From contig NZ_CP042997.1 in assembly GCF_008087625.1 (NCBI RefSeq), positions 5,704,001 to 5,768,000 on the forward strand: 64,000 nt of DNA. The letters run 5' to 3'. Both the position numbers and the translations under genes were made by a program. Positions 31,915-57,509 of this stretch are shown here, in pieces. The DNA is from Aquisphaera giovannonii (lineage in GTDB: Bacteria > Planctomycetota > Planctomycetia > Isosphaerales > Isosphaeraceae). The notes under the pieces were generated by a model. The model was not told where the DNA came from, searched no databases, and worked only from the letters and a program-made list of their open reading frames with translations. How positions within the stretch are numbered: the stretch's first letter is position 1; the number at the start of each line of letters is the position of its first letter.

Positions 31915-33438
31915 ATGCGGAGCTTCACCTGGCTGCCTCTCGGCCCGGTCGCGGACGGATTCCGCCCCTGGCTGGATGCCTATCGCCGGCAGTCGCCGGG
32001 CCGCCGGCGGGCGATCCGCTGGGGCCTCGCGGGGGCGATCCTGGCGGTCGCGGCGGTCGCCGTCGTCGCCACCACGCCCTCCCTGGGCACCCCGGGGACC
32101 TGGTACCTGGGGATGGGCCGGCACTACGCCGCGGACGACCTCAGCAAGGTGGCCCGCGCCTTCGACCGCCAGCGGATCGCGTACCAGGTCGACGATCAGC
32201 GGCGGGTGGCCGTGCCCTGGTCCCAGCGCGAGGCGGCCGAGGCGGCCGCCGCCAAGCTCGAGCTCGGCCCCCGGCTCCCCGGCGAGATCCGGGACGAGGT
32301 CCAGGCCCCGGGCCTCCTCGACTCCCCCTCCGACCGGGAGGCCCGCGAGCATCGCCGGCAGGAGCAGATCCTGGAGTCCCTCCTCGCGAGGGTGCCCGGG
32401 GTGGCGGGGGCCTTCGTCCGGGTCAACCAGCCCCGGCCCCGGCTGGGCCTCCAGCCGGCGGAGCGGCCCTGGGCCTTCGTCAGCCTGGAGACCGAGGGGG
32501 ACCGCCCGCTGCCCTTCCAGTCGGTGCAGCTCATCACCACGGTCGTCAACGGCTTCGACCGGGGCATCGCGCCGGAGTCCATCACCGTGGTGGACCGCCG
32601 CGGCCACAAGTACCTGGACGCCGCCAACCCCTCGCTGGGCGTCCTCTCCCGGAACCTCGCGGAGGAGGAGCGGCTCACCCGCGAGATCGAGGGGGAGCTC
32701 GACTGGATCAGGGGCGTCCGCGTCTCCGTCCAACTCCCCGACGCGCCGGCCGACGAGCCGAGGCCGCCGGCCCCGACCGCGACGGCCGAGGCCGCGAAGG
32801 GCCCGGATGCCGCGGCCCCCGTCATCGCCATCAACCGGCCGCTGGAGATCGCCGAGCCCCCGCCCTCCCCCCCGATCGCGCCCGCCGCCCCCGCCTCGCC
32901 GCCCGCGACGGCCGGCCCTCGACCGGGGCGCGAGCACGGCCGCGTCTGGGTCAAGGTGCCGCGGAGCTATTACTATCAGGTGGGCATGATCCCCGGCCGC
33001 AAGGAGCCCTCCCCGGACGACTTCCAGAAGCTCGTCGCCAAGACGGAGGAGCTCGTCCGCCAGGGCATCGGGGGCGTCGTCCCGCTCGCCGGGCCCTCGG
33101 CCTGGCAGGCGACCGTGAGCGTGATCCCCGACGAGCTCCCCTCGCCGGCCCCGGCCATGCCCGCGTCCGAGACGCGCGGCGTCCCCGCCACCTGGGCCGT
33201 CGCGGCGGGCGTCGCGGGGCTCCTCGCGGCCCTCGCGGCGCTCGCCGCCTGGCTCGTCCGCCTGGGCCTGCGGCCGGCCTCGCGGCGCGAGGCCTCGCCC
33301 CGGGGCGTGCGCTATCACCGGGGCTCGGCCGCCAGCCCCGGGCCGTCCGAGCTCGTCCGCGAGTTCGTCCGGCGCAACCCCGAATCGGCCGTGAGCGTCC
33401 TGGAGCGGTGGACCAGCCAGGGAGGCGAGACCCCATGA
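31915..33438 (+). CDS. fliF: FliF-like MS-ring protein
   Basis: The product is 507 residues. Membrane segments lie at about 35-56 (AIRWGLAGAILAVAAVAVVAT) and 420-447 (TWAVAAGVAGLLAALAALAAW). Between them are ring-building motifs (ADDLSKVARAFDRQRIAYQV, the YscJ/FliF domain; TREIEGELDWIRGVRVSVQL; FDRGIAPESITVVDRRGHKY) and a Pro/Ala-rich stretch. The cytosolic tail ends ELVREFVRRNPESAVSVLER, the usual FliG-binding C-terminus. FliF forms the membrane ring around the export gate. ATG 31915 has GGAGGAGG at 31902-31909. Its stop overlaps the fliG start (ATGA). It is somewhat shorter than classic FliF (about 550). Confidence 0.88.
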   Translation: MRSFTWLPLGPVADGFRPWLDAYRRQSPGRRRAIRWGLAGAILAVAAVAVVATTPSLGTPGTWYLGMGRHYAADDLSKVARAFDRQRIAYQVDDQRRVAVPWSQREAAEAAAAKLELGPRLPGEIRDEVQAPGLLDSPSDREAREHRRQEQILESLLARVPGVAGAFVRVNQPRPRLGLQPAERPWAFVSLETEGDRPLPFQSVQLITTVVNGFDRGIAPESITVVDRRGHKYLDAANPSLGVLSRNLAEEERLTREIEGELDWIRGVRVSVQLPDAPADEPRPPAPTATAEAAKGPDAAAPVIAINRPLEIAEPPPSPPIAPAAPASPPATAGPRPGREHGRVWVKVPRSYYYQVGMIPGRKEPSPDDFQKLVAKTEELVRQGIGGVVPLAGPSAWQATVSVIPDELPSPAPAMPASETRGVPATWAVAAGVAGLLAALAALAAWLVRLGLRPASRREASPRGVRYHRGSAASPGPSELVREFVRRNPESAVSVLERWTSQGGETP

Positions 33439-34016
33439 CGACCCCGACCCCGCGGGCCGCCGCCGATCCGGCCGGCGACGCCTCCGCCCCGCCGCTCGCC
33501 GTCGAGGCGGGGGCCATCCCGCCGCTCCGCAAGGCGGCGATCGTCCTCGTCAGCCTCGAGCAGTCGCTCGCCTCCCAGCTCCTCCAGCACCTCGACCGCG
33601 CCGCGGTGGAGGCGGTCACCTGGGAGATCGCCCGGCTCGAGCGGATCGACCCGGCGGAGCAGGAGGCCGTGCTCGAGGAGTTCCTCGGCCAGGGCCTCCG
33701 TCGCCTCTGCTTCGTCTTCGAGGACCTCCTGCGGATGGACGACCGCGACGTCCGCGGCGCCTACCACGAGGAGGACATCGACGCCTGGGCGCTCGCCCTC
33801 GCCGGCGCGGCCCCGCCGGTCCGCGCCAAGGTCTTCGGCTCGCTCGACCCGGCCTCGGCCGCGTCGCTCCGCGCCCACCTCGAGGGCATGGGCCCGTTCC
33901 GCCTCTCCGACGCCGAGTCCGCCCAGGTCGACCTCGCCGAGCGGTTCCGACGTCTCCACGACCGCGGCGCCGTCCGCCTGCCGGAGCCGAGCGCCCGCGA
34001 CGAGGTCCTCGTCTAG
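33435..34016 (+). CDS. fliG: Reduced FliG: N- and C-domains joined without the middle domain
   Basis: The product is 193 residues against about 330 for ordinary FliG. Residues 30-85 (LRKAAIVLVSLEQSLASQLLQHL...EQEAVLEEFL) match FliG-N, which binds FliF. Then the sequence goes directly to FVFEDLLRMDDRDVRG and the FliG-C helices (LALALAGAAPPVRAKVFGSL...LRAHLEGMGPFRLSDAESAQ). The whole middle domain, which carries the EHPQR FliM-binding site, is absent. Of the charged residues needed for torque in E. coli FliG, only the Arg in GPFRLS is kept; the Lys is Ala, the DD pair is AH and the other Arg is Ser. It overlaps fliF by 4 bp. It probably caps the FliF ring but is unlikely to drive rotation. Confidence 0.85.
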   Translation: MTTPTPRAAADPAGDASAPPLAVEAGAIPPLRKAAIVLVSLEQSLASQLLQHLDRAAVEAVTWEIARLERIDPAEQEAVLEEFLGQGLRRLCFVFEDLLRMDDRDVRGAYHEEDIDAWALALAGAAPPVRAKVFGSLDPASAASLRAHLEGMGPFRLSDAESAQVDLAERFRRLHDRGAVRLPEPSARDEVLV

Positions 34017-34059
34017 CGGGCGGGATCGCCGGCCGACCCCCGGGAGCAGGAGGCTCCTC

Positions 34060-34545
34060 ATGTTCGCGACACCTCGACGCACGATCGCCGCTGCGACCTT
34101 CTCGCTCGCCGCCCTCCTCGCGTCCGCGGCCGGCCCGACGTCCCGGGCCGAGGAAGCCGGCCCGGTCGTCGTGCCGCCCCCCTCGGGGCGCCTGCCGGTC
34201 CTCGGCCTTTCGGGCCCGTCGGCCCCGACGGATCCCGAGGCCGCGCGGCCGTCCGGCGGCGGCTGGTGGCTGGGGACCTCCGGGATCGCGCTGGCCCTCG
34301 CCGCCTGCGGCGCCGCCTCCGTCGCCGCCCGCCGATACCGCCCGCAGGGCTCCTCCGGGATGGTGAACGTCGTCGGCAAGGTGAGCCTCTCGCCCCGGCA
34401 TTCGATCGTCCTCGTCCGCGCCGGGGCCCGCGTCCTCCTCGTCGGCACGGGCCCGCAGGGCGCGCCCTCGCTCCTGGGCGAGCTCGAGGGCGAGGCCCTC
34501 CCCCTCGCCGCGGACGGCACGCCCCGGGCGGGAGGCGAGGCATGA
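34060..34545 (+). CDS. fliO: FliO-like export-gate assembly protein
   Basis: The product is 161 residues. A signal-like N-terminus (FATPRRTIAAATFSLAALLA) and a central membrane helix (about residues 67-90, WWLGTSGIALALAACGAASV) flank a Pro-rich segment. The cytosolic domain has NVVGKVSLSPRHSIVLVRAG, then VLLVGTGPQGAPSLLGELEG, the conserved FliO pattern. FliO is a chaperone for FliP ring assembly. AGGAGG at 34048-34053 supports ATG 34060. It overlaps fliP (ATGA), as in other fliOPQR operons. Confidence 0.8.
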   Translation: MFATPRRTIAAATFSLAALLASAAGPTSRAEEAGPVVVPPPSGRLPVLGLSGPSAPTDPEAARPSGGGWWLGTSGIALALAACGAASVAARRYRPQGSSGMVNVVGKVSLSPRHSIVLVRAGARVLLVGTGPQGAPSLLGELEGEALPLAADGTPRAGGEA

Positions 34546-35486
34546 CCGGACGCGGGCCGACCATCCGCCGCGCCGCCCTCCTCGTGACCCTGGCGGCGCT
34601 GGCATTCCTGGCTGCGGGCGCGAAACCGTGCCCGGCGCAGTTGCTGGCCGATTCCGACGAGCGCCCGTCGATCCCCGGCTTCGAGAGGCCGCGGTTCGAC
34701 GCCGAGGCGCTCAGGGCCGAGGCCGTGACTGTCCACGCGACGCCGCCGGGCCAGGCAGATGCCGCGGCCCCGGGCGAGGAGCCGGCCCCGGCGAAGCCCT
34801 CGCCGCTGCCCGACGCCCGGGACGCCATGCGGACCGCCTCCACGATGGCCCTCTACGGCCTCATGTGGCTGGCGCCGATGGGCGTGCTGATGCTCACGGC
34901 CTTCGTCCGCATCGAGATCGTCCTGGTCCTGCTCCGCCAGGCGATGGGCAGCCCGCAGGTCCCCAGCAACCAGGTGCTCATGGTTCTGGCGCTGCTGCTC
35001 ACGGCGCTCGTGATGCGGCCGGTCGGCGAGCGGGTCTACCAGGACGCGATCGTCCCCTTGCAGGCGGGCAAGGCCGCCCCGGCGGAGGCCTGGGAGGCGG
35101 GCTCAGCGCCCATCAAGGGCTTCATGGTAGACCAGATCGTCCGGACGAAGCACGCGGATTACCTGTGGGCCCTCTATCATCACGCCCGCCCGCCCGGCCC
35201 CGGCCGGGCCGAGCCGAAGTACGGCCACGAGTTCCCGTTCCGGATCGTCGCGCCGGCGTACCTGCTGAGCGAGCTGACCACCGCGCTGGTCATGGGCTTC
35301 TACCTGTACCTGCCGTTCCTGGTCATCGACCTGGCCGTCTCCGCGGTGCTCGCCGCGATGGGGCTCTACATGCTCCCGCCGACGCTCGTGGCCATGCCCG
35401 TGAAGATGATCGTCTTCGTCCTCGCCGACGGCTGGCTGCTCGTCTCGACGATGCTCCTGTCGAGCTTCGCCGGCCCGGGCGGATAG
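34542..35486 (+). CDS. fliP: FliP export-gate protein
   Basis: The product is 314 residues. After a signal peptide (residues 8-32) and a Pro/Ala/Glu-rich insert to about residue 95 come the family blocks: FVRIEIVLVLLRQAMGSPQV, PSNQVLMVLALLLTALVM, HADYLWALYHHARP, YLLSELTTALVMGFYLYLPF, VIDLAVSAVLAAMGLYMLPP and MPVKMIVFVLADGW. Five FliP subunits with FliQ and FliR make the substrate channel. All conserved parts are present, so the gate itself looks functional. The long periplasmic insert makes it larger than E. coli FliP (245). Confidence 0.93.
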   Translation: MTGRGPTIRRAALLVTLAALAFLAAGAKPCPAQLLADSDERPSIPGFERPRFDAEALRAEAVTVHATPPGQADAAAPGEEPAPAKPSPLPDARDAMRTASTMALYGLMWLAPMGVLMLTAFVRIEIVLVLLRQAMGSPQVPSNQVLMVLALLLTALVMRPVGERVYQDAIVPLQAGKAAPAEAWEAGSAPIKGFMVDQIVRTKHADYLWALYHHARPPGPGRAEPKYGHEFPFRIVAPAYLLSELTTALVMGFYLYLPFLVIDLAVSAVLAAMGLYMLPPTLVAMPVKMIVFVLADGWLLVSTMLLSSFAGPGG

Positions 35487-35501
35487 CCGAGGGGGAACAC
35501 C

Positions 35502-35768
35502 GTGGAACTCGATCATGTGATCGACTGGACGCGCGAGGCCCTGCGGATGAGCCTCCTGCTGGGCGGCCCCTTGCTCCTCGCCGCCCTGGCGGTCGGCCTG
35601 GTCGTGAACGTCCTCCAGACGCTCACGCAGCTGCACGAGCCGGTCGTCGGCCTGGTCCCGCGCCTGGCGGCCGTGCTGGTCGTCCTGCTGCTTATCCTGC
35701 CCTGGCTGCTCGGCCGCTGGCTGGGCTTCACGGCGGACCTCATCGGCCGCATCCCGGACCTGCTGTAG
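35502..35768 (+). CDS. fliQ: FliQ export-gate protein
   Basis: The product is 88 residues, the normal FliQ size, with two membrane helices (LRMSLLLGGPLLLAALAVGL and LAAVLVVLLLILPWLLGRWL) joined by the conserved LQTLTQLHEPVVGLVPRL loop. GTG start at 35502 with GAGGGGG upstream, 15 bp after fliP. It surrounds the FliP/FliR core. The next gene, fliR, is separated by a 178-bp inverted-repeat element, which is unusual inside this operon type. Confidence 0.92.
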   Translation: MELDHVIDWTREALRMSLLLGGPLLLAALAVGLVVNVLQTLTQLHEPVVGLVPRLAAVLVVLLLILPWLLGRWLGFTADLIGRIPDLL

Positions 35769-35778
35769 TTGGGACTCA

Positions 35779-35956
35779 CCACAGAGGCACAGAGGACACA
35801 GAGAAGACCGGAAGAGAAGAGAGCTTCTTTTGTAGGGTGCGTCTTGACGCATCGCGACCGCCCCGGCCGACCGGACGAGAGAAGTGCGAAGGGGTAGACC
35901 GCTCCACAAAGTCCTCCTCTCGTCCGGTCTTCTCTGTGTTCTCTGTGCCTCTGTGG
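35779..35956. repeat. Long inverted-repeat element inside the fli operon
   Basis: Arms at 35779-35811 and 35924-35956 are 33 bp each with one mismatch (CCACAGAGGCACAGAGGACA...). The centre has a TAGGGTGCGTCTTGACGCA block. Half-copies of the same element lie between fliR and flhB. The RNA would fold into a stable hairpin within the operon mRNA. Confidence 0.88.
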
Positions 35957-35987
35957 TTCGTACGATCGAAGATGCGAGGAGGATTCG

Positions 35988-36752
35988 CTGGACGCCTTCC
36001 CGCCGGACGCAGCCTGGATTGCCCTGCACGGGCCCGCCTGGATCCTGATCCTGGCGAGGGTCGCCGGCCTCTGCGTCACGGCCCCGCTGACGGCGGTCCC
36101 CGGCGTGGACGTGCGGCTGAAGCTCCTCCTCGCGGCGATGCTCGGCGCGGTGCTGATCCCGGTCCTGGAGCCGACGATCGGCGTGCCGCCGGCCGGGCCG
36201 GCGCTCGCCTGGGCGGCGGTCATGGAGCTGGCGGTCGGGGCCCTGCTGGGCCTCTCCGCGGGGCTGATCGTGGCCGGGGCCCGGCAGGCCGGGGACCTCG
36301 TCGCGGCGCAGGCGGGGCTCTCCGCGGCGACGCTCTTCAACCCGGAGTCGGGCGAGGAGGTCACCGCCCTGGGGCACCTGTACGGCCTCGTTGCGCTGGG
36401 CGTCTTCCTGGCGATGCAGGGGCCGCTCGTCCTGGTCGCCGCGCTCGCGGAGAGCTACCGCGTCGTCCCCGCCGGGGGCTTCCTCCTGGACGCGTCGACC
36501 GCGTCTCAGGTCTTCGCCCAGGTGGGCGGGGCCCTCGCGCTGTCCCTCCGCGCCGCCGCCCCCGTGGCGCTCGCCCTGGCCCTCGCCGGGCTCGCCATGG
36601 GCTGGATCGGCCGCCTCGCCCCCGCGATCCCCGTCCTCGCGATGTCCCTCCCGCTGCGTTCCCTGCTGGGCATCGCCCTGGTCATCCTGGTCCTCGGGGT
36701 GCTCGTCGCCACATTCTCGCAGGCGTGGGCCGCATGGCCGTGGGGAGGATAG
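35988..36752 (+). CDS. fliR: FliR export-gate protein with a probable CTG start
   Basis: The product is 254 residues, the usual FliR length. The next ATG-, GTG- or TTG-type in-frame start is at 36105 and would delete the conserved N-terminus (WIALHGPAWILILARVAGLC, TAPLTAVPGVDVRLK). The frame is open upstream and has GAGGAGG at 35976-35982, placed 5 bp before CTG 35988, giving (M)DAFPPDAAW. Later blocks are AVMELAVGALLGLSAGLIVA, GDLVAAQAGLSAATLFNPES and LMLP-like SLPLRSLLGIALVIL. FliR completes the FliPQR channel. No ATG/GTG/TTG fits, so the rare start codon is inferred and may reduce expression. Confidence 0.82.
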   Translation: MDAFPPDAAWIALHGPAWILILARVAGLCVTAPLTAVPGVDVRLKLLLAAMLGAVLIPVLEPTIGVPPAGPALAWAAVMELAVGALLGLSAGLIVAGARQAGDLVAAQAGLSAATLFNPESGEEVTALGHLYGLVALGVFLAMQGPLVLVAALAESYRVVPAGGFLLDASTASQVFAQVGGALALSLRAAAPVALALALAGLAMGWIGRLAPAIPVLAMSLPLRSLLGIALVILVLGVLVATFSQAWAAWPWGG

Positions 36753-36860
36753 GATGTTCATGATTGACATTAAACAATATTTGGCAATTCTGTTTTCTCT
36801 CTTTCTTTCTCCGGTCATCCTCTCCGGAACTCTCCCGTCCGGAAGGCCGGGGCGGTCGCG

Positions 36861-37027
36861 GTGCGTCAAGACGCACCCTACAAAACAACCCCTCTCCTCT
36901 TCCGGTCTTCTCTGTGTCCTCCGTGCCTCTGTGGTTAGGTGCGTCCGCGCTGCGCTTGACGCACCCTACAGAAGAACCTCCCCCTCTTCTCGGCCTTGTC
37001 TTCTCTGTGTCCTCCGTGCCTCTGTGG
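36861..37027. repeat. Half-copies of the CACAGAGG-type element between fliR and flhB
   Basis: Two direct copies of the arm, CTTCTCTGTGTCCTCCGTGC followed by CTCTGTGG, lie at about 36901-36934 and 36994-37027. They are accompanied by palindromic GTGCGTC/GACGCAC blocks (36861-36876 and about 36939-36964). The sequence matches one arm of the 35779-35956 element. The region also includes an A/T-rich patch (36760-36810) and no gene. Confidence 0.8.
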
Positions 37028-37049
37028 TTAGTCCATTAGGGGTTGCGTG

Positions 37050-38105
37050 ATGTCCGACGAGGATCGCACCCAGCCCGCATCGAAGCGTCGCCTCCAGCTC
37101 GCCCGCGAGCAGGGCCAGGTCGCGCACAGCCCGGAGCTGACGGCCGCGGTCGGGTGGCTCGTCGCCCTGGTCCTGCTGGGCTCCTGGGGCGGGGACCTGA
37201 TCCGCGGCCTGGCGATGCTGACGCGGGCCCCGCTGGAGGCCGTGCCGGTCGCGATCGACGCCGGCCGATTCGTGGCCGACCTCCGCGCCGCGGCCCTGGC
37301 GATCGCGGCGCCCCTCGCGGTCCTCGTGCTGGGCTTCGCGGCGGGCGCCGTCGCGGCCCACCAGGCGCAGGTGCGGGGCCTCTGGGCCCCCTCGCTCCTC
37401 GCCCCGGACGCCTCGCGGCTCTGGTCGGTCGGCCGCGGCGGCGGGCTCGGGGCGGGGCTCGAGCGGATCGCCTGGGCGGCGATCAAGGCGGTCCTCCTCG
37501 TGGTCGTCTCGGCCTGGGCGATCCGGGCGGAGTGGGCCGAGCTGCAACGCCTCGGCCTGCTGGCGCCGGCGGAGCTGGCGTCGGCATCCGGCCGCGTCGT
37601 GGTCTGGCCGCTCGGGGTGCTCGGCGCGGTCATGGTCGCGGTCGGCCTGGCGGACCTGGGCCTCCGCCTCGCCCGGTTCGAGGCGATGCTCCGGACCACG
37701 CCCGACGAGCACCGCGAGGACCAGAAGGCGATGGAGGGCGACCTCTCGCTTCGGGCCAGGCGCCGGCGGCTCGCCCGGGCCTGGCGCGGCGACGCCCCGG
37801 AGCTGCTGGCCGGCGCCACGCTCGTCGTCACCGGCGCCGGCGGCCTGACCGTCGTCATCGGCGGCGGCCCGCCCCCGCGTCGCGTGAACGTCCGCTCCGC
37901 CGCCAAGGGCCCGACCGGCTTCCAGCTCCGCCATTCCAATCGCACCGTCTGGATCCCCGAGATCGAGGCCCCCGCCCTCGCCCTCCGCCTCGGCCCCTAC
38001 GCCGCCAACGCCCCCGGCGCACCCGAGACCCTCCCCGCTGACCTCCTCGCCGCCCTCGCCGCCGCCTGGCCGGCCCCGGCTCCCGGCCCTCGCCGGCCGG
38101 CCTGA
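37050..38105 (+). CDS. flhB: FlhB-like export switch protein lacking the NPTH cleavage site
   Basis: The product is 351 residues. The start KRRLQLAREQGQVAHSPELT is the FlhB signature (SKRRLxxAREQGQVAxSxEL). Four membrane segments follow to about residue 215. The cytosolic linker EHREDQKAMEGDLSLRARRR matches the EhKEE.K..EGDP..K.R.R block. Where every export-competent FlhB has VTNPTHxA, this protein reads LVVTGAGGLTVVIGG. Without Asn-Pro the self-cleavage that switches substrate class cannot occur. The C-terminal tail is poorly conserved and Pro/Ala-rich. Start at ATG 37050 (GTG 37047 also possible) with AGGGG upstream. Confidence 0.85.
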   Translation: MSDEDRTQPASKRRLQLAREQGQVAHSPELTAAVGWLVALVLLGSWGGDLIRGLAMLTRAPLEAVPVAIDAGRFVADLRAAALAIAAPLAVLVLGFAAGAVAAHQAQVRGLWAPSLLAPDASRLWSVGRGGGLGAGLERIAWAAIKAVLLVVVSAWAIRAEWAELQRLGLLAPAELASASGRVVVWPLGVLGAVMVAVGLADLGLRLARFEAMLRTTPDEHREDQKAMEGDLSLRARRRRLARAWRGDAPELLAGATLVVTGAGGLTVVIGGGPPPRRVNVRSAAKGPTGFQLRHSNRTVWIPEIEAPALALRLGPYAANAPGAPETLPADLLAALAAAWPAPAPGPRRPA

Positions 38106-40106: not shown

Positions 40107-40161
40107 GGAGTCCTCCGGGAAGCCGGGGATCGGCCCCGCACCTGGGCGGCGGTCGTCGCGG

Positions 40162-42466: not shown

Positions 42467-42597
42467 CGAAGTTCATCCGTTCGGTGCGAGGAGCGTTGAG
42501 ACCCGATTCGCGCTGCGGGTCGGACAAATGTAGCGGACGGGGCGAGGTCGAGCAAGGGTTTCGGAGCGGAGCACGGGCGCATGGCGAAGGCCCCTCG

Positions 42598-43140
42598 TGG
42601 GAGCCGCCTCCGTGCGGCGACCGCGCCGGCCGAGGCTCACCCGGTCGCCGCACGGAGGCGGCTCCCACAAATACGCCCGCCGGCCGAGGCTCACCCGGTC
42701 GCCGCACGGAGGCGGCTCCCACAAATACGCCCGCCGGCCGGGGCTCACCCGGTCGCCGCACGGAGGCGGCTCCCACAAATACGCCCGCCGGCCGGGGCTC
42801 ACCCGGTCGCCGCACGGAGGCGGCTCCCACAAATACGCCCGCTGGCCGAGGCTCGCGCGATCGCCGCACGGAGGCGGCTCCTACAACGGCTTTCGCCGGC
42901 CGAGGCTCACCCGGTCGCCGCACGGAGGCGGCTCCCACGAGGGTTTACGCCGGCATCGGCTGATTCGGTCGCCGCACGGAGGCGGGTCCCACAAATACGC
43001 CCGCTGGCCGAGGCTCACCCGGTCGCCGCACGGAGGCGGCTCCTACAAATTCGCCCGCTGGCAGAGGCTCACGCGGTCGCCGCACGGAGGCGGCTCCCAC
43101 GAGGGTTTTCGCCGGCATCGGCTGATTCGGTCGCCGGTGG
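42598..43140. repeat. Tandem array of 54-bp units
   Basis: GGTCGCCGCACGGAGG, or a close variant, recurs with an exact 54-bp period from 42643 to 43075, and the GGTCGCCG part again at 43129 (ten positions). Units share a core TCGCCGCACGGAGGCGGCTC followed by CCACAAATACGCCCGC. The left end at 42598-42622 is an inverted copy of the core. Because 54 is divisible by three, several long open frames pass through (VGAASVRRPGEPRPAG-type peptides); these are artefacts. The core belongs to the same family as the hairpins at 243-320 and 60269-60346. The intervening 28 bp is also conserved, so this is not a CRISPR array. Confidence 0.92.
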
Positions 43141-43153
43141 AGCACGGCCCGCC

Positions 43154-45799
43154 TCAGGGGCGGGGCGTCATCGGCGGGGGAGTCGCCCCGGGGGCGGCGG
43201 CGGAGGTTGACGCCGCCTCGCAGTCGGACAGGTACCGCTGGAGGACGCCGGGGCGCAGGTAGTCGGCGCGGGGGTAGGCGGCGATACGCTGGCTCGGGAT
43301 CCGGCCCAGGTTCTCGATCGCCCGGCGGAGGACCGGGGCGGCCTCGGAGGGGCGGCCGGTCTCGCGCAGGAGCCGCGCGAGCTCGTCCTCGTCATGGATC
43401 AGCGAGAGGCGGATGTCGGCGTTCTCGGGGTCGGACCCGACCAGGTCGGCGAACAGGGCCTCCGCGTCGGCGTAGAGCGGCTCGGCCCCCGCCAGGTCGC
43501 GTCGCCGGTGGAGGACCCCCGCGAGGTCATTCATCGCGGTGGCCAGGTGGGCTTTCGTCTCGCGATCCGCCGGGTGGGCCCCGAGGCTCTCCCGGCCGAC
43601 CGCGATGGCCCTGAGGTAGTCGCCGCGGGCGGCCTCGAGGTCGCCGGAGAGCTTGTGGATGTCGCCGAGCTTGCGGTCGCTCCAGGCGAGCATGGCCGAG
43701 GCCTCGGCGCTGCCCGGCTCCTCCGAGGTCCAGCGCCCGGCAAGGTCGCGGGCCCTCCGGAACCAGGCCACCGCCTCGCCGTAATCCCGGCGGAATCCGT
43801 ACGCCCGCCCCAGCCGGATGTACGCCTCGAGCAGCCCCCTGCGGTCGCCCGGGCGCGAGGCGCCGGACGCCGCGACCTGCTCCGAGAGGTCCACGACCCG
43901 CTGGAAATGCTCCAGGGCGGGCGTGTTCCCCGGGTCGAACACGCCGAGCTCGCCGAGGCCGATGTGGGCCCGGATCAGGCAGTCCCTGGCGGCCAGGTCG
44001 CCGGGGGCGTCCTCGGCGCGCTGCTCGGCCAGGCGGACGGCGAGCTCGAACTGGCGCCCGGCCTCGGCCGACCGGCCCACCTGGCGGTAGATCTCGCCGA
44101 GCTTCTGGTGGGCGGCGGCGCGGCTCATGTCGGGCGGCGTGGCCTCGGTGCTCGTCGCCAGATCATCGAGGCCGGCGATGGCCGTGTCGAGCAGGCTCTG
44201 GCGGAGGTGCCGCGTCGCGGGCGTCTCCCCCAGCCGCTCCTGGACCTCGAAGACGAGCTTGTCCAGCGCCTGCATGGCGAGGTTGCGCTGCTCGAGCGCG
44301 AACCGGGTCTTGCGGTCGGCCTCGTCCTTCGCCTCGCGGGCCGCCCGCACGCCGGCCCGGAGCAGGGCGTTGTAGCGGAGGATGCCCGCGAAGACGACGG
44401 CGACGGCCAGGGCGAGCCCGAGGAGCGCTACGGCGAGCCCCGGGCGGCGGCGGGCCCACTTCGCCGCCTTCTCCCAGGGCGGGGAGGGGCGGGCGAGGAT
44501 CGGGCGGCCGTCGAGGAACCGCCGCAGGTCGTCGGCCATCGCGTCGGCGGAGGCATACCGCCGGGACGGGGCCTTCTCCAGGCACTTCATGCAGATCGTC
44601 TCGAGGTCGCGCGGCGTGCTCCTCTGGAGGCTGCTGGGGACGAGCGGCTCCTGGTTCGCGACCTGGTCGAGCGTGGAGAGGGGCGTGGCCCCCTTGAAGG
44701 GCGGCCGGCCGGTGAGGGCCTCGTAGAGGATCGCCCCCAGCGCGTAGACGTCCGCCGCGGGGGTGATGTCGCCCGAGGGGCCGAGGAGCTGCTCGGGGGC
44801 CATGTAGCTGGGGGTCCCCAGGATCGTCCCGGAGACCGTGGGGGCGGCCTCCTGCTCGAGCAGCTTCGCCAGGCCGAAGTCGGTGATCTTCGGGACGCGG
44901 CCCTCGGCCAGGACGATGTTGGCCGGCTTCAGGTCGCGGTGGACGATCCCGCACCCGTGCGCGTAGTGGATCGCCCGCGCGAGCTGCTCGACCAGGGCGG
45001 CCGACGCGGCGGGATCCTGCGGCGTGCCGGCGATCGCGGCCCCGAGGCTGCCGCCGGCGGCGTACTCGAGCGTGATGTAGCCGAGCCCCTCGTGCTCGCC
45101 CACCTCGTAGACCTGGATGATGTTGGGGTGCTGGAAGCGGGCCGCCGCCTCGGCCTCGGCGCGGAAGCGGCCCGCGGCCCCGGGCAGCGCGTGGTGCCCG
45201 GCCTGGATCACCTTGAGGGCCACCAGGCGGTTGAGCGCGAGCTGGCGGGCCCGGTACACGACGCCCGCCCCGCCCCGGCCGAGCTCGCCGAGGATGCGAT
45301 AGCCCGGGATCTCCGGCGCGCCCTCGAGGCCCGGGCCGTCCTCGGCGTCGCCCCCGCCGAGCGTCCTCGCGGGCGCCTCGCCGCCGGGCTCGTCCCGGGC
45401 GAGGGCCCGATGCAGCGCCAGCTGGCGGCGCAGCCGGTCGGCGAGCTCCGGGAATCGCCACGCGTACTCCTCGATGCACGGCGATTCGCCCATCGACTCG
45501 CGGAGCATGAACTCGCTGTAGACCACCTCGAACGCCGCGTTGCCGCGCCCCCGGAGCGCCGGGTGCAGGGCGAGGTAGGCCTCCGCGGGGATTCGATGGC
45601 CGGCGTGCCAGCCGCGGATCTGGTCGTTGCAGAGCCACTCGACGAGCTCCTCCTCGCTGGCGTCGACGGCCCGGGCGATGCGCTCCCGGATGTCCGGGCC
45701 GCGGCCCGAGTCGCCGGATCGGCCGTCCGCCGTCGGGGGCCCGAGGTGGGTCCGGCCGTGCCGCGCCGGGTCGTTCGGGGATGCGTCCTGTCTGATCAT
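43154..45799 (-). CDS. Membrane Ser/Thr protein kinase with TPR repeats
   Basis: The product is 881 residues from ATG 45799; an in-frame GTG at 45892 would add 31. Residues 1-160 hold a planctomycete kinase N-region (EELVEWLCNDQIRGWHAGHR...IEEYAWRFPEL). The kinase domain (about 165-430) has LGRGGAGVVY, VALKVI, IVHRDLKPANI, ITDFGLA and SYMAPEQL, all catalytic residues present. A membrane helix near 453-473 (GLAVALLGLALAVAVVFAG) is followed by an extracytoplasmic region with several TPR-like repeats up to the end. The gene directly follows an ECF-type sigma factor, the standard planctomycete sigma/kinase pairing, so it may regulate that sigma factor. Confidence 0.9.
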   Translation of the reverse strand: MIRQDASPNDPARHGRTHLGPPTADGRSGDSGRGPDIRERIARAVDASEEELVEWLCNDQIRGWHAGHRIPAEAYLALHPALRGRGNAAFEVVYSEFMLRESMGESPCIEEYAWRFPELADRLRRQLALHRALARDEPGGEAPARTLGGGDAEDGPGLEGAPEIPGYRILGELGRGGAGVVYRARQLALNRLVALKVIQAGHHALPGAAGRFRAEAEAAARFQHPNIIQVYEVGEHEGLGYITLEYAAGGSLGAAIAGTPQDPAASAALVEQLARAIHYAHGCGIVHRDLKPANIVLAEGRVPKITDFGLAKLLEQEAAPTVSGTILGTPSYMAPEQLLGPSGDITPAADVYALGAILYEALTGRPPFKGATPLSTLDQVANQEPLVPSSLQRSTPRDLETICMKCLEKAPSRRYASADAMADDLRRFLDGRPILARPSPPWEKAAKWARRRPGLAVALLGLALAVAVVFAGILRYNALLRAGVRAAREAKDEADRKTRFALEQRNLAMQALDKLVFEVQERLGETPATRHLRQSLLDTAIAGLDDLATSTEATPPDMSRAAAHQKLGEIYRQVGRSAEAGRQFELAVRLAEQRAEDAPGDLAARDCLIRAHIGLGELGVFDPGNTPALEHFQRVVDLSEQVAASGASRPGDRRGLLEAYIRLGRAYGFRRDYGEAVAWFRRARDLAGRWTSEEPGSAEASAMLAWSDRKLGDIHKLSGDLEAARGDYLRAIAVGRESLGAHPADRETKAHLATAMNDLAGVLHRRRDLAGAEPLYADAEALFADLVGSDPENADIRLSLIHDEDELARLLRETGRPSEAAPVLRRAIENLGRIPSQRIAAYPRADYLRPGVLQRYLSDCEAASTSAAAPGATPPPMTPRP

Positions 45800-46516: not shown

Positions 46517-46543
46517 CAAAATGTTGCTCCTCGATGAACGGCG

Positions 46544-48371: not shown

Positions 48372-48391
48372 CGTCCTCGCCGATCCGGCGC

Positions 48392-48434: not shown

Positions 48435-48744
48435 GGCCGCCGTGCGGGGGCGGGCCGGGGCGGCCGCCGCGGCTCCGACGAGTCGCCCGGAGGATCGCCG
48501 CGGCCCGACGATCCAATTCGGGGAAAACAGCCTCGATCGTGTCCAGGGTCGATGGCGTTGAGCAATAAGGTGCCGTACCGAGGCCGGAGGGGGCCGCGTC
48601 CACCGCGGCCCGGGTCGAAGGCGAGCAGCCGGACGCCTCGGTTGGAAATGCCCTCGGGCCGTGGCCGACGAGTGGGCGCGGGCGGTGGTCGCTCGCACGC
48701 CCCTCCCGGTCGCGGTCCGCGCCGAACCGTAAGGTCCGATCACC

Positions 48745-52185: not shown

Positions 52186-52540
52186 GGCCGGCCGTCCCGG
52201 GGGCGGAATCGACGGCGACGGCCCGGGGGCATCTCCCCGGGCCGGCGTCGCGCGCCGGCCGGCGGGGTGGCGTGCCCTCCGGGCGTGGATCCGCAGCCGA
52301 TTGCATGCCATTCGCTCTGGACACGTCCCGACGGGGGCGGTATGGTCCCCGCACACTTCCAGAGCGATGCCGATTCACGGCGACAGGCGGGACAGAGATC
52401 GGGACGGCCTCGGCGCGAGCCGGGGCCGGGGCGACGCTGCCGGTCGGGGCGGGGGCGGAGGGGATCCGTGCGGCCCGCCTCCGGCGCCCGGGCCCCGCGC
52501 CGGTTCGGCATCGTCGGGTCAGGAATCGCGGAGGGGACGG
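52186..52540. other. Leader region before flhA, with a hairpin
   Basis: CGGCCCGGGG (52219-52228) and CCCCGGGCCG (52235-52244) form a perfect hairpin that may end the beta-helix transcript; it has no T-tract. I see no clear promoter for flhA. A GCCGATTC near 52369 is only loosely similar to a sigma-28 -10 box. Confidence 0.45.
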
Positions 52541-54886
52541 ATGCCAGGGACGACATCGAGCCCGCTCGCTTCCGGGTGGCGGCACGCCTCCGGGTTCGTG
52601 ATGCCGATCGTGATCGTCGGCGCCGTCCTCGTGTTCGTGGTGCCGATCCCGCCGGCTCTGCTGGACGTCCTGCTCTCGGCCAACCTGACGCTCGCCGTCG
52701 TGGTCCTGCTGACCACGCTGGCGATCCGGACGCCGCAGGAGTTCAGCGCCTTCCCGACCATCCTGCTGACGACCACGCTGACCCGGCTGGTGCTCAACGT
52801 GGCGACCACCCGGCTCGTCCTGACCGGCGGCGGCACCGAGCTCGGCGTGAACGCGGCCGGCGGCGTGATCCGGTCGTTCGGCGAGTTCGTCGCCGGCGAC
52901 CAGGTGCTCGTCGGCGTGATCCTGTTCTCGATCCTGGTCGTCATCCAGTTCGTCGTGATCACCCGGGGGGCCACGCGGATCAGCGAGGTCGCCGCGCGGT
53001 TCATGCTCGACGGTCTCCCCGGCCGGCAGATGGCCATCGACGCCGACCTGCACGCCGGGCTGATCGACCAGCACCAGGCCCACGAGCGCCGGGACGAGGT
53101 CTACCGCCAGGCGGACTTCTTCGGGGCGATGGACGGGGCGGGCAAGTTCGTCCGCGGCGACGCCATCGCGGGCGTCGCCATCCTGATGGTGAACATCTGC
53201 GGCGGGCTCTTCCTGGGCGTCTTCCAGTACGGGATGAGCGTCTCGGACGCGGTGAACGTCTTCACGAAGCTGACGATCGGCGACGGCCTGGTGAGCCAGG
53301 TGCCGGCGTTCCTGATCTCGCTGGCGGCCGGCCTGATCGTGACGCGGTCGTCGTCCTCGACGGACCTGGGCCGCGACGTGACCGGGCAGCTCTTCGGGGA
53401 CCGCGGCGTGCTGGGCACGGCGGCCGTCTTCCTGGGCCTGCTGGCCTTCACGCCGCTGCCCAAGGCCCCGCTGCTGACGCTCGCCGGGGGCCTCGGCGCC
53501 GGGGCGATCCTGATGGGCCGCCGCGGCGCGTCGGGCGAGGGCGAGGCGGCGGCCGCCGACCACCCGGCCGGGCGTCGCGAGGGCCCCGGCCAGGCCCACG
53601 GCCCGGACCGCCGGGTGGACGCCGGCCACGCCCCGATCGCCGCCCCGAGGCACGCGGCCGAGCCGCCGGCCGCGCCGGCTTCGGGCCCGGGCTCCGAGGG
53701 GATGGAGGACCTGCTGCACGTCGACCCGCTGGAGCTGGAGATCGGCTACCGGCTGATCGGACTGGCCGACCCGACGCGGGGCGGCGACCTTTTGGAGCGG
53801 CTGCGGACGGTCCGCCAGCGGATGGCCCGCGAGCTCGGCCTGATCATCCCGCAGGTCCGGATCCACGACGAGATCGGGCTGACGCCGCACGAGTACCGGG
53901 TGAAGATCCGCGGGGCGATCGCGGGGCAGGGGACGGCGCACGCCGGCCGGCTGCTGGCGGTGCCCCCGGCGGGGCTGGCCGGCCGGCCCGACGGCCGCGA
54001 CGGCATCGACCCGATCACAGGCCAGGCCGCGGTCTGGATCCACGCCGACGGGCGTGAGGTCGCGGAGCTCTCCGGCTGCCGGGTCATGGAGGCCTCGTCG
54101 GTCGTCGCCGGGCACTTCGGCGAGATCATCCGCAACCACGCCGACGAGTTGCTGACCCGCGAGCAGGTGGACCGCCTGCTCGACCGCGTCCGCGCCACGG
54201 CGCCGTCGCTGGTGGCCGAGGTCGTGCCCAGCCTGCTCCGCCCCGGCGAGCTCCAGCGGGTGCTCCAGAACCTGCTCCGCGAGCGCGTGAGCATCCGCGA
54301 CCTGGAGACGATCCTGGAGACCCTGGCCGTGCACGCCGGCCGGACCCGCGACGTGGAGGTGCTCACCGAGCACGCCCGCCAGGGGCTGGCCCGCCAGATC
54401 ACCGAGAGCCACCGCGGCGCCGACGGGCGGCTCCGCGTGGTCACGCTGTCGAAGCCCCTGGACGCCCGGCTCTGCGCGGCCGGCGGCGAGGCCGACACCC
54501 GGCCCTCCGAGGCCCTCGGCGACGAGATGACGCGGAGCGTCGTCCGCGCCGTGGCCGTGGCCGTGGCCACGCTGGTGGACGCCGGGCTGCCGCCGCTGAT
54601 CCTCACCTCCGCCGCGGCCCGCCCCGTGCTCAAGGACCTGACCCGCGCCGACCTGCCGCGGCTCGTCGTCCTGAGCCAGCGGGAGATCCCGCGGGACACG
54701 CCCCTGGAGGTCCTGGGCAGCGTGATCGAGGAGGACGACGCCGACGACGCCGAGGCCGGGGTCGAGCCGGGGCCGGGGCCCCTGGATGCGGACTGGGAGG
54801 GCGCGCCGGAGGCCGGCCGCCGGACGCCGCCGCGGCGGGAGCCGGACATCGTGACCTCGATCACCACCACCGAGGCCCTCGGCTGA
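52541..54886 (+). CDS. flhA: FlhA export-gate protein
   Basis: The product is 781 residues, longer than E. coli FlhA (692). Eight membrane helices occupy residues 20-330, including LLDVLLSANLTLAVVVLLTT and the FHIPEP-type signature FGAMDGAGKFVRGDAIAG. Residues 330-385 are a Pro/Ala/Gly-rich linker. The cytosolic part (LLHVDPLELEIGYRLIGLAD, RRQMARELGLIIPQVRIHDE, ...LLREQVDRLLDRV, LLRERVSIRDLETILETLAV) is complete. FlhA forms the nonameric docking ring for substrates. GGAGG precedes ATG 52541. The position 14.4 kb from flhB and downstream of secreted proteins is unusual but the gene looks intact. Confidence 0.93.
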   Translation: MPGTTSSPLASGWRHASGFVMPIVIVGAVLVFVVPIPPALLDVLLSANLTLAVVVLLTTLAIRTPQEFSAFPTILLTTTLTRLVLNVATTRLVLTGGGTELGVNAAGGVIRSFGEFVAGDQVLVGVILFSILVVIQFVVITRGATRISEVAARFMLDGLPGRQMAIDADLHAGLIDQHQAHERRDEVYRQADFFGAMDGAGKFVRGDAIAGVAILMVNICGGLFLGVFQYGMSVSDAVNVFTKLTIGDGLVSQVPAFLISLAAGLIVTRSSSSTDLGRDVTGQLFGDRGVLGTAAVFLGLLAFTPLPKAPLLTLAGGLGAGAILMGRRGASGEGEAAAADHPAGRREGPGQAHGPDRRVDAGHAPIAAPRHAAEPPAAPASGPGSEGMEDLLHVDPLELEIGYRLIGLADPTRGGDLLERLRTVRQRMARELGLIIPQVRIHDEIGLTPHEYRVKIRGAIAGQGTAHAGRLLAVPPAGLAGRPDGRDGIDPITGQAAVWIHADGREVAELSGCRVMEASSVVAGHFGEIIRNHADELLTREQVDRLLDRVRATAPSLVAEVVPSLLRPGELQRVLQNLLRERVSIRDLETILETLAVHAGRTRDVEVLTEHARQGLARQITESHRGADGRLRVVTLSKPLDARLCAAGGEADTRPSEALGDEMTRSVVRAVAVAVATLVDAGLPPLILTSAAARPVLKDLTRADLPRLVVLSQREIPRDTPLEVLGSVIEEDDADDAEAGVEPGPGPLDADWEGAPEAGRRTPPRREPDIVTSITTTEALG

Positions 54887-54947
54887 GCCGGGGCGGCGGG
54901 GGGGCGTCGGGTCGGGCCCAGTCGAGTCGAATTGTCGAGGTCGGTGG

Positions 54948-56102
54948 ATGACGATGGCCGCGAAAACCTACAGGGCCGGGACGATGCGGGAGGCGCTGGC
55001 GAGGGTCCGCAAGGACCTCGGCGGCGACGCGATCATCCTCGCCTCTCGCTCGGTCCGGCGCCGGCGGCTGTTCGGCCTGGGCGGCCGCGAGCTGATCGAG
55101 GTCCGCGCGTCGGCCACCATGCCGCAGGCGGCCGCGCTCGTGGAGGCGGCCGGGGCGCCGCCCCCGCCGGCCTCCGGGGCCGCGGCGGGGCCGGGGGGCC
55201 TCTCCGCCGACGCGCAGGGGCGGCTCGGCGACGAGCTGAGCCGGCTGCACGAGCGCGTGGACGCCCTGAGCCGGATGGGGCGGGTGGACCACCTCGTGCC
55301 CGACCTGCCGGCGCCGGTCGTCGCCTCGTATGCGAGGCTGGTCGAGGCCGAGGTCCCCGAGCCCCTGGCGCGCCGGATCGCGGCGGCCGTCGCGGACTCG
55401 CTGGAGCCGCACCAGCTCCACGACCCGGCGGAGGTCGACGAGGCGCTCCTCGAGGCCGTGGCGCGGTCCATCCCGGTCGCCCCGCCGATCCGCGCCGTCA
55501 TGGGCACGAGGCGGGTGGTGGCGCTCGTCGGGCCGACGGGCGTGGGGAAGACGACGACGGTGGCGAAGCTCGCGGCCAACTTCAAGCTGGTGCACGGCCT
55601 GTCCGTCGGGCTCGTCACGCTGGACACCTACCGGATCGCGGCCGTGGAGCAGCTCCGGACCTACGCCGAGATCATCGACCTGCCGCTGGCCGTGGCGAAC
55701 GACCCCGGGGAGATGGCCCGGGCGCTCGACGAGCTGGGCGCGGTGGACATCGCCTTCATCGACACGGCCGGGCGCAGCCCGCGGGACGAGGTGAAGATCC
55801 GCGAACTGGGCGAGTTCATGGACCGGGCCCGGCCCGACGAGGTCCACCTGGTCCTCAGCGCCGGGGCCGGCGAGAAGACGCTCCGCGCCGCGGCCGAGCG
55901 GTTCGCCCGGGTGCGGGCGGATCGCCTGATCCTCACCAAGCTCGACGAGGCGGAGGGCCTGGGCGATGCGCTCGGCCTGCTCGGCCAGTCGAGCCTGCCG
56001 GTGAGCTACCTGACCACCGGCCAGGCGGTCCCCGACGACATCGAGCCGGCCGACCGCCGGCGGCTCGCGGGCCTGATCCTCGGGATGGAGGCCATCGGAT
56101 GA
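54948..56102 (+). CDS. flhF: FlhF SRP-type GTPase
   Basis: The product is 384 residues. An N-terminal B domain (residues 1-120, TYRAGTMREALARVRKDLGG and DAIILASRSVRRRRLFG) is followed by the NG domain. GTPase motifs are G1 GPTGVGKTTT (about residues 195-204), DTYRIAAVEQLRTYAEIIDL, DTAGRSPRDEVKIREL and TKLDEAEGLG. FlhF places the flagellar base and export gate at the membrane and needs the N-terminal helix of FlhG to trigger GTP hydrolysis. ATG 54948 lies 61 bp after the flhA stop. A 59-residue peptide with the FlhG activator motif follows at 56208. Confidence 0.92.
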   Translation: MTMAAKTYRAGTMREALARVRKDLGGDAIILASRSVRRRRLFGLGGRELIEVRASATMPQAAALVEAAGAPPPPASGAAAGPGGLSADAQGRLGDELSRLHERVDALSRMGRVDHLVPDLPAPVVASYARLVEAEVPEPLARRIAAAVADSLEPHQLHDPAEVDEALLEAVARSIPVAPPIRAVMGTRRVVALVGPTGVGKTTTVAKLAANFKLVHGLSVGLVTLDTYRIAAVEQLRTYAEIIDLPLAVANDPGEMARALDELGAVDIAFIDTAGRSPRDEVKIRELGEFMDRARPDEVHLVLSAGAGEKTLRAAAERFARVRADRLILTKLDEAEGLGDALGLLGQSSLPVSYLTTGQAVPDDIEPADRRRLAGLILGMEAIG

Positions 56103-56207
56103 CGGGGACCGCGACGGGCATGGCGGCCGGCCTGGCGGCGCGACGCGAGCCTCTCGGCGCGGGCGCCGCGGGCGGCCGATCCGACATCCGGCCGGACGGG
56201 AGGCGAG

Positions 56208-56387
56208 ATGCCCGATCAGGCGGATAACCTGCGGCGGCTCGTCCGGGCGCAGCGGCAATGGAAGCGGGCCGACGAGCCGGCGCGGCCCGTCGCGGCGGGG
56301 GAGCCCTCGGGGCGCCCCGGCGCGACGGGCCGGCGCGAGGGATGGCTGGCACGGGCGGCACGCCGGGCCTTCGGGCTCGCCACGTGA
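56208..56387 (+). CDS. 59-residue FlhG-activator-like micropeptide
   Basis: The product is 59 residues. It begins MPDQADNLRRLVRAQRQWKR, which contains DQAxxLR, the conserved motif of the N-terminal helix by which FlhG/YlxH activates the FlhF GTPase. There is no MinD-type ATPase domain. A Gly/Pro/Arg linker leads to a C-terminal basic amphipathic segment GWLARAARRAFGLAT, which resembles the membrane-targeting helix of MinD/FlhG. GGGAGG at 56198-56203 stands four bp before the ATG. It lies 106 bp downstream of flhF, where FlhG would be expected. An overlapping 42-codon frame starting at 56099 is judged a shadow. Inference: a stand-alone FlhF activator stripped of the ATPase. Confidence 0.72.
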   Translation: MPDQADNLRRLVRAQRQWKRADEPARPVAAGEPSGRPGATGRREGWLARAARRAFGLAT

Positions 56388-56732
56388 GGGCGGGCGGGCG
56401 GGGCGGACGCGCGACGGGGCGCGGGCTCCAGGGTTTCTCAGCGCGAAGAAAGGAGGATCGTCATGGGATGCGAGATTTCTCGGTCGGGGGGATAGTGACG
56501 TTCAAGCGGGTTGGGCCGACGATCCGATAATCGAATAGGTTGGAGTTCTCTGGACGGCGTGAGGATCCGGGGCGATCGCCGGGTGCCGGCACGGGCGGCA
56601 AGGCATCGCGGCGCGGGCGGGTCGCGGCGGCGGCATCGGCGGGCATCGGCCCGTACGGCCGGCGCGGGCGGCCGGCCGCTCACCCCGGGCACATGGATGT
56701 GATCCCCACGCCCAGCCGACACGGAGGTCAGG
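56388..56732 (+). other. Leader region before fliA, with a mini-ORF
   Basis: AAAGGAGGAT at 56449-56458 is an almost perfect ribosome-binding site but serves only a 10-codon frame, MGCEISRSGG-stop (56463-56495). TCCGATAA at 56523-56530 resembles the sigma-28 -10 box (GCCGATAA) but its -35 partner is weak (TCAAG near 56502-56506). This may be a leader peptide or a decayed gene start. Confidence 0.45.
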
Positions 56733-57509
56733 ATGTCAACCAAGGTGGATGTGGATGTGACCGAACTCTGGCGCGAGTTCAAGGAGCACCCCACCACGGA
56801 GATGCGGAACCAGCTCGTCGAGCGGTACCTGCCGCTCGTCAAGTACAACGCCGAGCGCATCTGGCAGCGGCTGCCGGAGGGGGTGGACCTCGATGACCTG
56901 ATCTCCGCCGGCGTCTTCGGGCTGATGGACGCCATCGACGCGTTCGACCTGACCCGCGGCGTCAAGTTCGAGACCTACTGCGTGCCCCGGATCCGGGGCG
57001 CCATGCTCGACGAGCTCCGCACGATGGACTGGGTCCCCCGGCTGGTCCGCTCCAAGGCCAGCAAGATGGAGGAGGCCCGCAAGGAGCTCGAGGCCAGGCA
57101 CGGCCGGCCCCCCACGCCCGCCGAGCTCGCCGAGAAGATGGGCCTGCCCATGGCCGAGTTCGAGAAGCTGGCCATGGACGCCTCCGCCGTCGGCCTCATC
57201 AGCCTCAACAAGAAGTGGTACGAGACCGACGGCTACAAGGACGTCCGCGAGATCGACATCCTCGAGGACAAGAAGGGGGAGGACCCCACCCGACGCCTCC
57301 AGCGCAAGGACCTGATGCGCATGGTGACGAAGGGGCTGAACCGCAACGAACGCCTGATCATCATCCTCTATTATTACGAAGAGCTGACCATGAAGGAGAT
57401 CGGGGCGACGCTCGACCTGAGCGAGTCGCGGGTCTCCCAGATGCACTCGTCGATCATCCAGCGGCTCCAGTCCCAGCTCTCCTCCCGCCGCCCCGAATTC
57501 GGCACCTGA
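56733..57509 (+). CDS. fliA: FliA/WhiG-type sigma factor (sigma-28 family)
   Basis: The product is 258 residues with sigma-70 regions in order: region 2 about 20-95 (NQLVERYLPLVKYNAERIWQ, DLDDLISAGVFGLMDAIDAF, RGVKFETYCVPRIRGAMLDE), region 3 about 100-165 and region 4 about 200-255 (NERLIIILYYYEELTMKEIG, LDLSESRVSQMHSSII). The RGAMLDELR and SRVSQ motifs are those of FliA-type factors that read sigma-28 promoters. No FlgM gene is visible. GGAGG at 56723-56727 supports ATG 56733. It ends the flhA-flhF group, as in many flagellar operons. Confidence 0.93.
   Translation: MSTKVDVDVTELWREFKEHPTTEMRNQLVERYLPLVKYNAERIWQRLPEGVDLDDLISAGVFGLMDAIDAFDLTRGVKFETYCVPRIRGAMLDELRTMDWVPRLVRSKASKMEEARKELEARHGRPPTPAELAEKMGLPMAEFEKLAMDASAVGLISLNKKWYETDGYKDVREIDILEDKKGEDPTRRLQRKDLMRMVTKGLNRNERLIIILYYYEELTMKEIGATLDLSESRVSQMHSSIIQRLQSQLSSRRPEFGT

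Follow-up and report, generated by a model that had tools for sequence, protein, structure and literature searches.

A conserved, reduced flagellar export gate suggests that the non-swimming planctomycete family Isosphaeraceae turned its flagellum into a different export machine

We identified a reduced set of flagellar genes in a 64,000-nucleotide stretch of the 10.5 Mb genome of Aquisphaera giovannonii (G000:C1:5704001-5768000; this whole stretch is called the window, and G000 is its own genome), and found that most of this set is conserved across the planctomycete family Isosphaeraceae. At 31.9-38.1 kb lie fliF, a shortened fliG, fliO, fliP, fliQ, fliR and flhB; these are followed at 52.5-57.5 kb by flhA, flhF, a 59-amino-acid remnant of FlhG and the sigma factor gene fliA. 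An earlier reading of the same stretch, which we refer to as the original prediction, had placed these genes correctly, and both groups, apart from the FlhG remnant, pass their Pfam cut-offs. We consider that they are best explained, with a likelihood slightly above even, as the core of a flagellum-derived export machine that would work without an ATPase, would be placed in the cell by FlhF and would carry a cytoplasmic platform resembling that of the injectisome, the non-flagellar type III secretion system (NF-T3SS). A role as a membrane scaffold or regulator comes next in our ranking, and decay of a former flagellum ranks low.

All genes of the set lie on the plus strand. The first group starts with a divergent fliF, encoding the membrane/supramembrane (MS) ring protein (31915..33438; PF01514, 52 bits), which is followed by the short fliG (33435..34016; FliG_C 78 bits, FliG_N 54 bits), fliO (34060..34545; PF04347, 34 bits), fliP (34542..35486; PF00813, 200 bits), fliQ (35502..35768; PF01313, 76 bits), fliR (35988..36752; PF01311, 154 bits) and flhB (37050..38105; PF01312, 123 bits over positions 1-261 of 335). 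The second group consists of flhA (52541..54886; PF00771, 763 bits), flhF, which encodes a GTPase of the signal recognition particle (SRP) type (54948..56102; PF00448 (SRP54), 148 bits), the FlhG remnant (56208..56387) and fliA (56733..57509; NCBIfam FliA_WhiG, 265 bits), with a sigma-28-like element upstream of fliA at 56502..56529. The complete export gate, made up of FliP, FliQ, FliR, the transmembrane part of FlhB and FlhA, is therefore represented above Pfam cut-offs in the window. Under the stricter NCBI equivalog models FliF, FliG, FliR and FlhB fall below the cut-off, and these four proteins are therefore divergent. FliR spans its whole domain (PF01311 positions 3-227 of 230), with no in-frame ATG, GTG or TTG before its first helix; judging from the nucleotide context, its start is likely to be a CTG at 35988, behind GAGGAGG.

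The presence and absence of flagellar parts was assessed in 59 genomes, comprising 37 Isosphaeraceae and 22 genomes from other families in the same class. We detected FlhA in 36 of the 37 family genomes and in 21 of the 22 others, and FliP in 34/37 and 21/22, respectively, so that the set in the window is not the product of decay in a single genome. By contrast, the domain Flg_bbr_C, which is shared by rod, hook and hook-associated proteins, was found in 20 of the 22 other-family genomes, not in G000, and in just one of the 37 family genomes (G005, which has neither FlhA nor FliP). We take G005 as contamination or an incomplete bin, and it was kept in all denominators. Flagellin was present in 20/22 other-family genomes versus 0/37 in the family. 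The export ATPase FliI exceeded its cut-off in 21/22 versus 0/37 genomes, the family matches reaching approximately 213-237 bits against a cut-off of 379.5; since the model used, TIGR01026, covers both FliI and YscN, no SctN-type ATPase exceeded the cut-off in any of the 37 genomes either. At E 0.001, G000 gave no match to FliM, Flg_bbr_C, MotA_N or flagellin, and FliI was matched only at the level of F1-ATPases, under the cut-off. The predicted absence of rod, hook, filament and FliI genes from the window therefore extends to the rest of its genome and, beside a gate, to the whole family. MotA_N was matched in none of the 37 family genomes, yet in just 13 of the 22 others, so this model decides little, and MotB was outside the search. 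Pfam FliM gave four weak matches (21-28 bits) in the 37 family genomes and was found in 14/22 of the others. Besides MotB, these absence searches omitted FliE, FliH, FliJ, FlgM, FlgH, FlgI and the secretins.

It could be argued that a complete flagellum is present, with axial parts that have become too divergent for detection. The scores of FliF, FliO and the FliM half, which are near or under their cut-offs, would agree with this, as would the poor reach of MotA_N and the omission of FliE and other parts from the search. However, FliI is strongly conserved elsewhere and passes its cut-off nowhere in the family, and several different axial proteins share Flg_bbr_C, which stands beside no gate in any family genome. 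In addition, one report states that the characterized members produce no motile swarmers, and that flagellar assembly genes are poorly represented in four Isosphaeraceae (PMC5352709). We regard a hidden flagellum as highly improbable.

We compared gene neighbourhoods in 40 stretches from 27 relatives together with the window, and thereby covered 28 of the 37 genomes of the family. The motif scan alone included stretches of G023, G028, G031, G033, G034 and G035 and one of G024, and clusters of open reading frames (ORFs) were pre-filtered by codon-position G+C. The order fliF-fliG-fliO-fliP-fliQ-fliR-flhB was kept within one stretch in 21 of the 28 genomes, while in the other seven the stretch was cut by a contig end, was rearranged, or had a gene missed by tblastn. 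The division into two loci is real in the window and is not a general trait, as the original prediction might have suggested. Matches to flhB and flhA are separated by only 200-473 bases in seven relatives (G001, G015, G020, G025, G029, G032 and G036), and by approximately 3.3, 1.1 and 2.8 kb in G002, G010 and G027; the close spacing in the seven relatives indicates that the 14-kb gap of the window is local. For the same reason the HAF and beta-helix proteins encoded in this gap, which had been suggested as substrates, have no positional claim to that role, and we rejected them as candidates.

The genes also appear to be maintained. Pairwise ratios of nonsynonymous to synonymous substitution (dN/dS, Nei-Gojobori), calculated for three close pairs, ranged from 0.013 to 0.449 across all ten genes compared, which denotes purifying selection. 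FliP, FliQ, FliR and FlhA are whole over their domains and are among the genes under such selection, in agreement with the prediction of an intact channel. In a tree of FlhA, computed by a quick method without bootstrap, 27 family members were set apart as a single clade (support 100) from 73 rows of other planctomycetes, family rows shorter than 600 amino acids and other rows outside 550-1000 amino acids having been excluded. The family sequences group with planctomycete flagellar FlhA, in a tree that held no named NF-T3SS row. Their branch is long (0.89), from which we infer a changed constraint, and a central stretch of FlhA is similar in nearly all rows. FliA is conserved to a far higher degree than FlhA, FlhF or FliP, with a median identity of 92% to 24 family members and 74% to 52 other planctomycete loci; because of this difference, its role may be wider than the export system.

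Several features would be expected of a functionless flagellar remnant in decay, including repeats in the fliQ/fliR and fliR/flhB gaps, the unusual start of fliR, the truncation of FlhB in G006, G009, G014 and G026, the loss of the cytoplasmic platform from four genomes, and the loss of FliG2 (a second FliG) and FlhG from the lineage of the window. On the other hand, such decay is difficult to reconcile with FlhA in 36/37 genomes, gene order kept in 21/28, dN/dS well under 1 for all ten genes, and the maintenance of a family-specific gene, that of protein X described below. We consider this explanation improbable.

Several of the retained proteins have lost parts. The self-cleavage motif NPTH of FlhB was found in none of 26 family sequences, the window included. 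In G006, G009, G014 and G026 the corresponding region is either garbled or absent, and the G030 gene runs into the end of its contig (one alignment display of FlhB excluded sequences outside 240-500 amino acids). Among eight full-length FlhB proteins from other planctomycete loci, five have NPTH, two have a variant (NPTE, NPSH) and one has neither; the last, L173, is thus a full-length FlhB outside the family that is likewise without the motif. In FliG, the N and C domains are joined directly and the middle domain is gone. A lysine and paired acidic residues in the torque helix of FliG have a role in torque; these are found in the flagellated relatives L071 and L073 and are replaced here. Twelve of 26 loci, the window not among them, have a second FliG after fliG that consists of the C domain only (FliG_C 7.8e-13). 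The C-terminal peptide of FliF, of the type that binds FliG, is kept in all 24 family rows inspected by eye.

The state of FlhG varies within the family. A full FlhG, with KGGVG, is encoded at 12 of 25 fliA loci. Of the remainder, one carries a 354-amino-acid ORF without KGGVG, two have neither form, and ten carry a short ORF of 59-78 amino acids with the DQAxxLR helix, represented in the window by DQADNLR, without the ATPase domain. The short form occurs in G000, G001, G002, G015, G029 and G036, which form one group in the FlhA tree, and also in G017, G020, G022 and G032. Since the neighbours of this group, G006 and G018, carry the full FlhG, the ATPase domain was lost at least twice, and perhaps four times. 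According to the available part of PMC12826062, it is through the retained helix that FlhG stimulates FlhF. The remnant would therefore represent a natural separation of function, in which the ATPase domain was dropped and the FlhF-activating helix alone was kept. Taken with the changes in FlhB and FliG, this bears out the prediction that the three proteins have lost the regions associated with torque, with the switch between substrate classes and with control by the ATPase domain.

The same losses are open to another interpretation, in which export itself has been lost and the ring, the gate and the FlhF/FlhG remnant form a positioned scaffold or regulator in the membrane, which could act, for instance, on type IV pili, budding or polarity. 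The retention of FlhF and of the FlhG helix even where the FlhG ATPase domain has gone would suit such a role, as would the loss of FliI and of the FlhB switch. A precedent may be found in the non-flagellated Lysobacter enzymogenes, in which, in the available part of PMC7277350, flhA, flhB, fliI and fliR affect twitching; twitching is nevertheless independent of fliP and fliQ in the same text. The intact pore proteins FliP, FliQ, FliR and FlhA, held under purifying selection, go beyond the apparent needs of a scaffold, and on balance we regard this alternative as unlikely, although worth serious attention.

The reading as an export machine draws further on two proteins encoded outside the window. 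The statement that fliM and fliN are absent is correct for the window and incorrect for the genome, as one FliM/FliN-like SpoA protein is encoded at G000:C1:8713043-8714302, approximately 2.9 Mb away. A single SpoA-domain protein of this kind is present in 26 of the 37 family genomes. It matches FliMN_C with 73 bits, and its best NCBIfam model is SctQ, with 84.9 bits over residues 241-417, under the cut-off of 100.8. In a profile search of solved structures the closest was FliN, followed by YscQ-C and SpaO. We also compared a predicted model of the protein (predicted local distance difference test, pLDDT, 75.8; predicted template modelling score, pTM, 0.45) with known structures. Residues 232-419 matched FliM(SpoA)-FliN fusions (4yxc, Z 15.1, with a root-mean-square deviation (rmsd) of 13.2 over the two domains together; 4yxb, Z 14.2, rmsd 2.8), residues 35-214 matched the middle domain of FliM (4gc8, Z 14.9, rmsd 3.3), and the best Foldseek match was a FliM of the cytoplasmic (C) ring (E 8.2e-9). 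In view of these matches the protein is, as modelled, a FliM-FliN fusion with two SpoA domains in which the FliM middle domain is kept. SctQ has been argued to be a FliM-FliN fusion too, in the available part of PMC4832279. An internal start, which is known for SctQ, was sought with a crude rule, and a start codon with a purine-rich stretch was found in the linker of 14 of 23 members, G000 not being among them.

FliM is also unusual in another family of the class, f3. Five of its genomes (G038, G043, G047, G051 and G056) have rod/hook, flagellin and FliI matches, no Pfam FliM match and two SpoA proteins each, and FliM is therefore divergent there.

The gene of the SpoA protein is overlapped at its start by that of a 313-amino-acid protein, named here protein X (G000 C1:8714292-8715233), which has no Pfam or NCBIfam match and no solved relative by sequence. 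In a wider panel of 45 Isosphaeraceae and 203 other genomes of the class, the protein X profile was found in 36/45 and 0/203, respectively. Its predicted model is helical (pLDDT 81.3, pTM 0.75), and the best structural match was the sorting-platform protein PscK, an SctK (6uie_B, Z 8.7, rmsd 4.9, 167 aligned residues), followed by ten FliG structures (Z 5.1-5.6) and then a retroviral capsid (4.9). One of 22 protein X members (G016) reached the FliG_C cut-off, with 23.5 versus 23.3 bits. It is likely from the modelled fold that protein X is kin to SctK and FliG.

We propose that the Isosphaeraceae inherited a flagellum which was then stripped to its base, leaving the FliF MS ring, a FliG ring devoid of its torque parts, and FliO together with the gate formed by FliPQR, FlhB and FlhA. 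The flagellar C ring would have become an injectisome-like platform, formed by the FliM-FliN fusion with its two SpoA domains and the co-encoded SctK/FliG-like helical protein. FlhF would position the resulting complex, with the FlhG helix stimulating its GTPase. Since FliI is missing, the proton motive force would power the gate, and with neither the NPTH of FlhB nor a hook there would be no substrate switch. A small set of proteins would be exported across the inner membrane. The available part of PMC4230889 indicates that Salmonella without the ATPase can secrete when the proton motive force is raised. Given this precedent, and gate proteins that exceed the cut-offs of their models, an exporter driven by protons is possible. 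The claim that the gate was kept for secretion rather than motility is upheld as regards a gate retained under purifying selection in the absence of rod/hook, filament and FliI, and its use in secretion is putative.

Other observations weigh against this proposal. No substrate or chaperone was found, and no search was aimed at an outer-membrane conduit. The Z of 8.7 for protein X lies in a range that the tool warns of among helical proteins, and Foldseek returned nothing for it at E 0.001, the best match being a FliG at 0.13. Protein X was also rejected as a sequence relative of FliG, as a profile comparison against a FliG alignment of seven rows, four of them family members, gave E 0.17 and a probability of 0.3%. 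Four genomes that are 93-99% complete (G007, G012, G013 and G021) keep the gate and show neither protein X nor the SpoA protein, and the FlhA proteins of G007, G013 and G021 are on long branches. Finally, FlhB, FliF and FliG miss the NCBI equivalog cut-offs.

Bare export cores have also been reported to serve as platforms for membrane nanotubes or other envelope structures, a role mentioned for nanotubes in the available parts of PMC9380563 and PMC7277350, and the whole export core is within the set kept here. Such a role would leave the retention of FliF, FliG, FlhF and the FliM-FliN fusion unexplained, and we think it quite improbable in Isosphaeraceae.

The proposed export machine can be compared with several known systems. 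Flagellated planctomycetes have FliF, FliG, FliO, FliP, FliQ, FliR, FlhB, FlhA, FlhF and FliA of the basal body and type III export apparatus in common with Isosphaeraceae, whereas the latter have no FliI, rod/hook domain or flagellin, and have FlhB without NPTH, FliG without its middle domain, and FliM fused to FliN. Like the injectisome, including the secretin-less form of Myxococcales described in the available part of PMC3459982, the system has a gate and a ring and no flagellar axis, and the SctQ-like fusion (PMC4832279) and the putative SctK-like partner add to the likeness. Unlike the injectisome, it has no FliI/SctN-type ATPase over the cut-off, keeps FliG, FlhF and FlhG, and has an FlhA that descends with those of planctomycete flagella. 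Lysobacter enzymogenes likewise retained a flagellar gate after losing its flagellum; however, it keeps and uses FliI according to the available part of PMC7277350, whereas FliI is absent in 37/37 Isosphaeraceae and the state is family-wide.

A Pirellulaceae-type genome, G054, provides a further comparison (loci L203, L204 and L205). It also lacks any match to Flg_bbr_C, flagellin and MotA_N, and its FlhB ends short of the NPTH region, the match being limited to positions 1-236 of 335. Unlike the Isosphaeraceae, G054 retains a FliM protein, FliI (507 bits) and FliH, together with an ORF that weakly resembles FliJ, and its FliF is fused to FliG. Its FlhA falls among Rhodopirellula-type rows of the tree, and this axis-less system probably arose separately. 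It is conceivable, although we would put this somewhat below even, that the Isosphaeraceae represent a second, independent conversion of a flagellum into an injectisome-like exporter, with the fusion as SctQ analogue, a FliG relative as SctK analogue, no export ATPase and no substrate switch throughout the family, and that G054 is a parallel, less reduced case.

Other features were noted in and around these loci. A gene for a small protein that has the core YEWVLKKK and, judged by eye, an N-terminus of the Sec type (30940..31551, plus strand) is upstream of fliF in the window and near fliF in most loci compared, adjoins flhA in G022 and is up to approximately 40 kb away in other genomes. Its profile was found in 40/45 Isosphaeraceae and, marginally, in 1/203 other genomes of the class. 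The link with the export genes is positional only, and it makes the protein a possible partner. The FliA regulon was considered as a lead to substrates. At 18 of 25 loci, fliA is preceded by a looser version of the sigma-28-like element. Genome-wide, the stricter pattern was found 91 times among the 45 family genomes (0-5 per genome, with 2 in G000) versus 8 times for the reversed pattern, an excess that may stem from a small regulon or from a composition rich in CpG. Among the promoter-pattern matches, TCAAGACGCAC...CCGATA recurs in G013, G016, G020, G022, G032 and G003, and these sites are probably part of a dispersed repeat. Dispersed repeat-like stretches of the CACAGAGGCACAGAGGACACAGAGAAGACC type are also present inside the operon of the window, at 35775-35955 between fliQ and fliR and at 36800-37035 between fliR and flhB. 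At 42473-43262, overlapping ORFs on both strands contain tandemly repeated peptide units, as expected from a short DNA repeat array. In G040, G049 and G057, the full FlhA match is accompanied by a second one that is partial, covering only approximately positions 309-656 of the model.

In conclusion, our comparative analysis suggests that a non-swimming family turned the flagellar export gate and inner rings into a different export machine. A search of the open literature, which left most subscription journals outside, yielded among the papers listed no report of a conserved exporter in Isosphaeraceae, and this is weak evidence of novelty. Arguments on how a flagellum turns into a secretion machine have drawn on a single ancient event, of which Myxococcales are seen as a surviving intermediate (PMC3459982). 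If our interpretation is true, the Isosphaeraceae would be a living family after a separate event of this kind, in which the genes are clustered, species can be cultured and lineages differ in how much they have lost, and the order of the losses, as well as the need for the ATPase, the switch and the C ring, would become directly testable.

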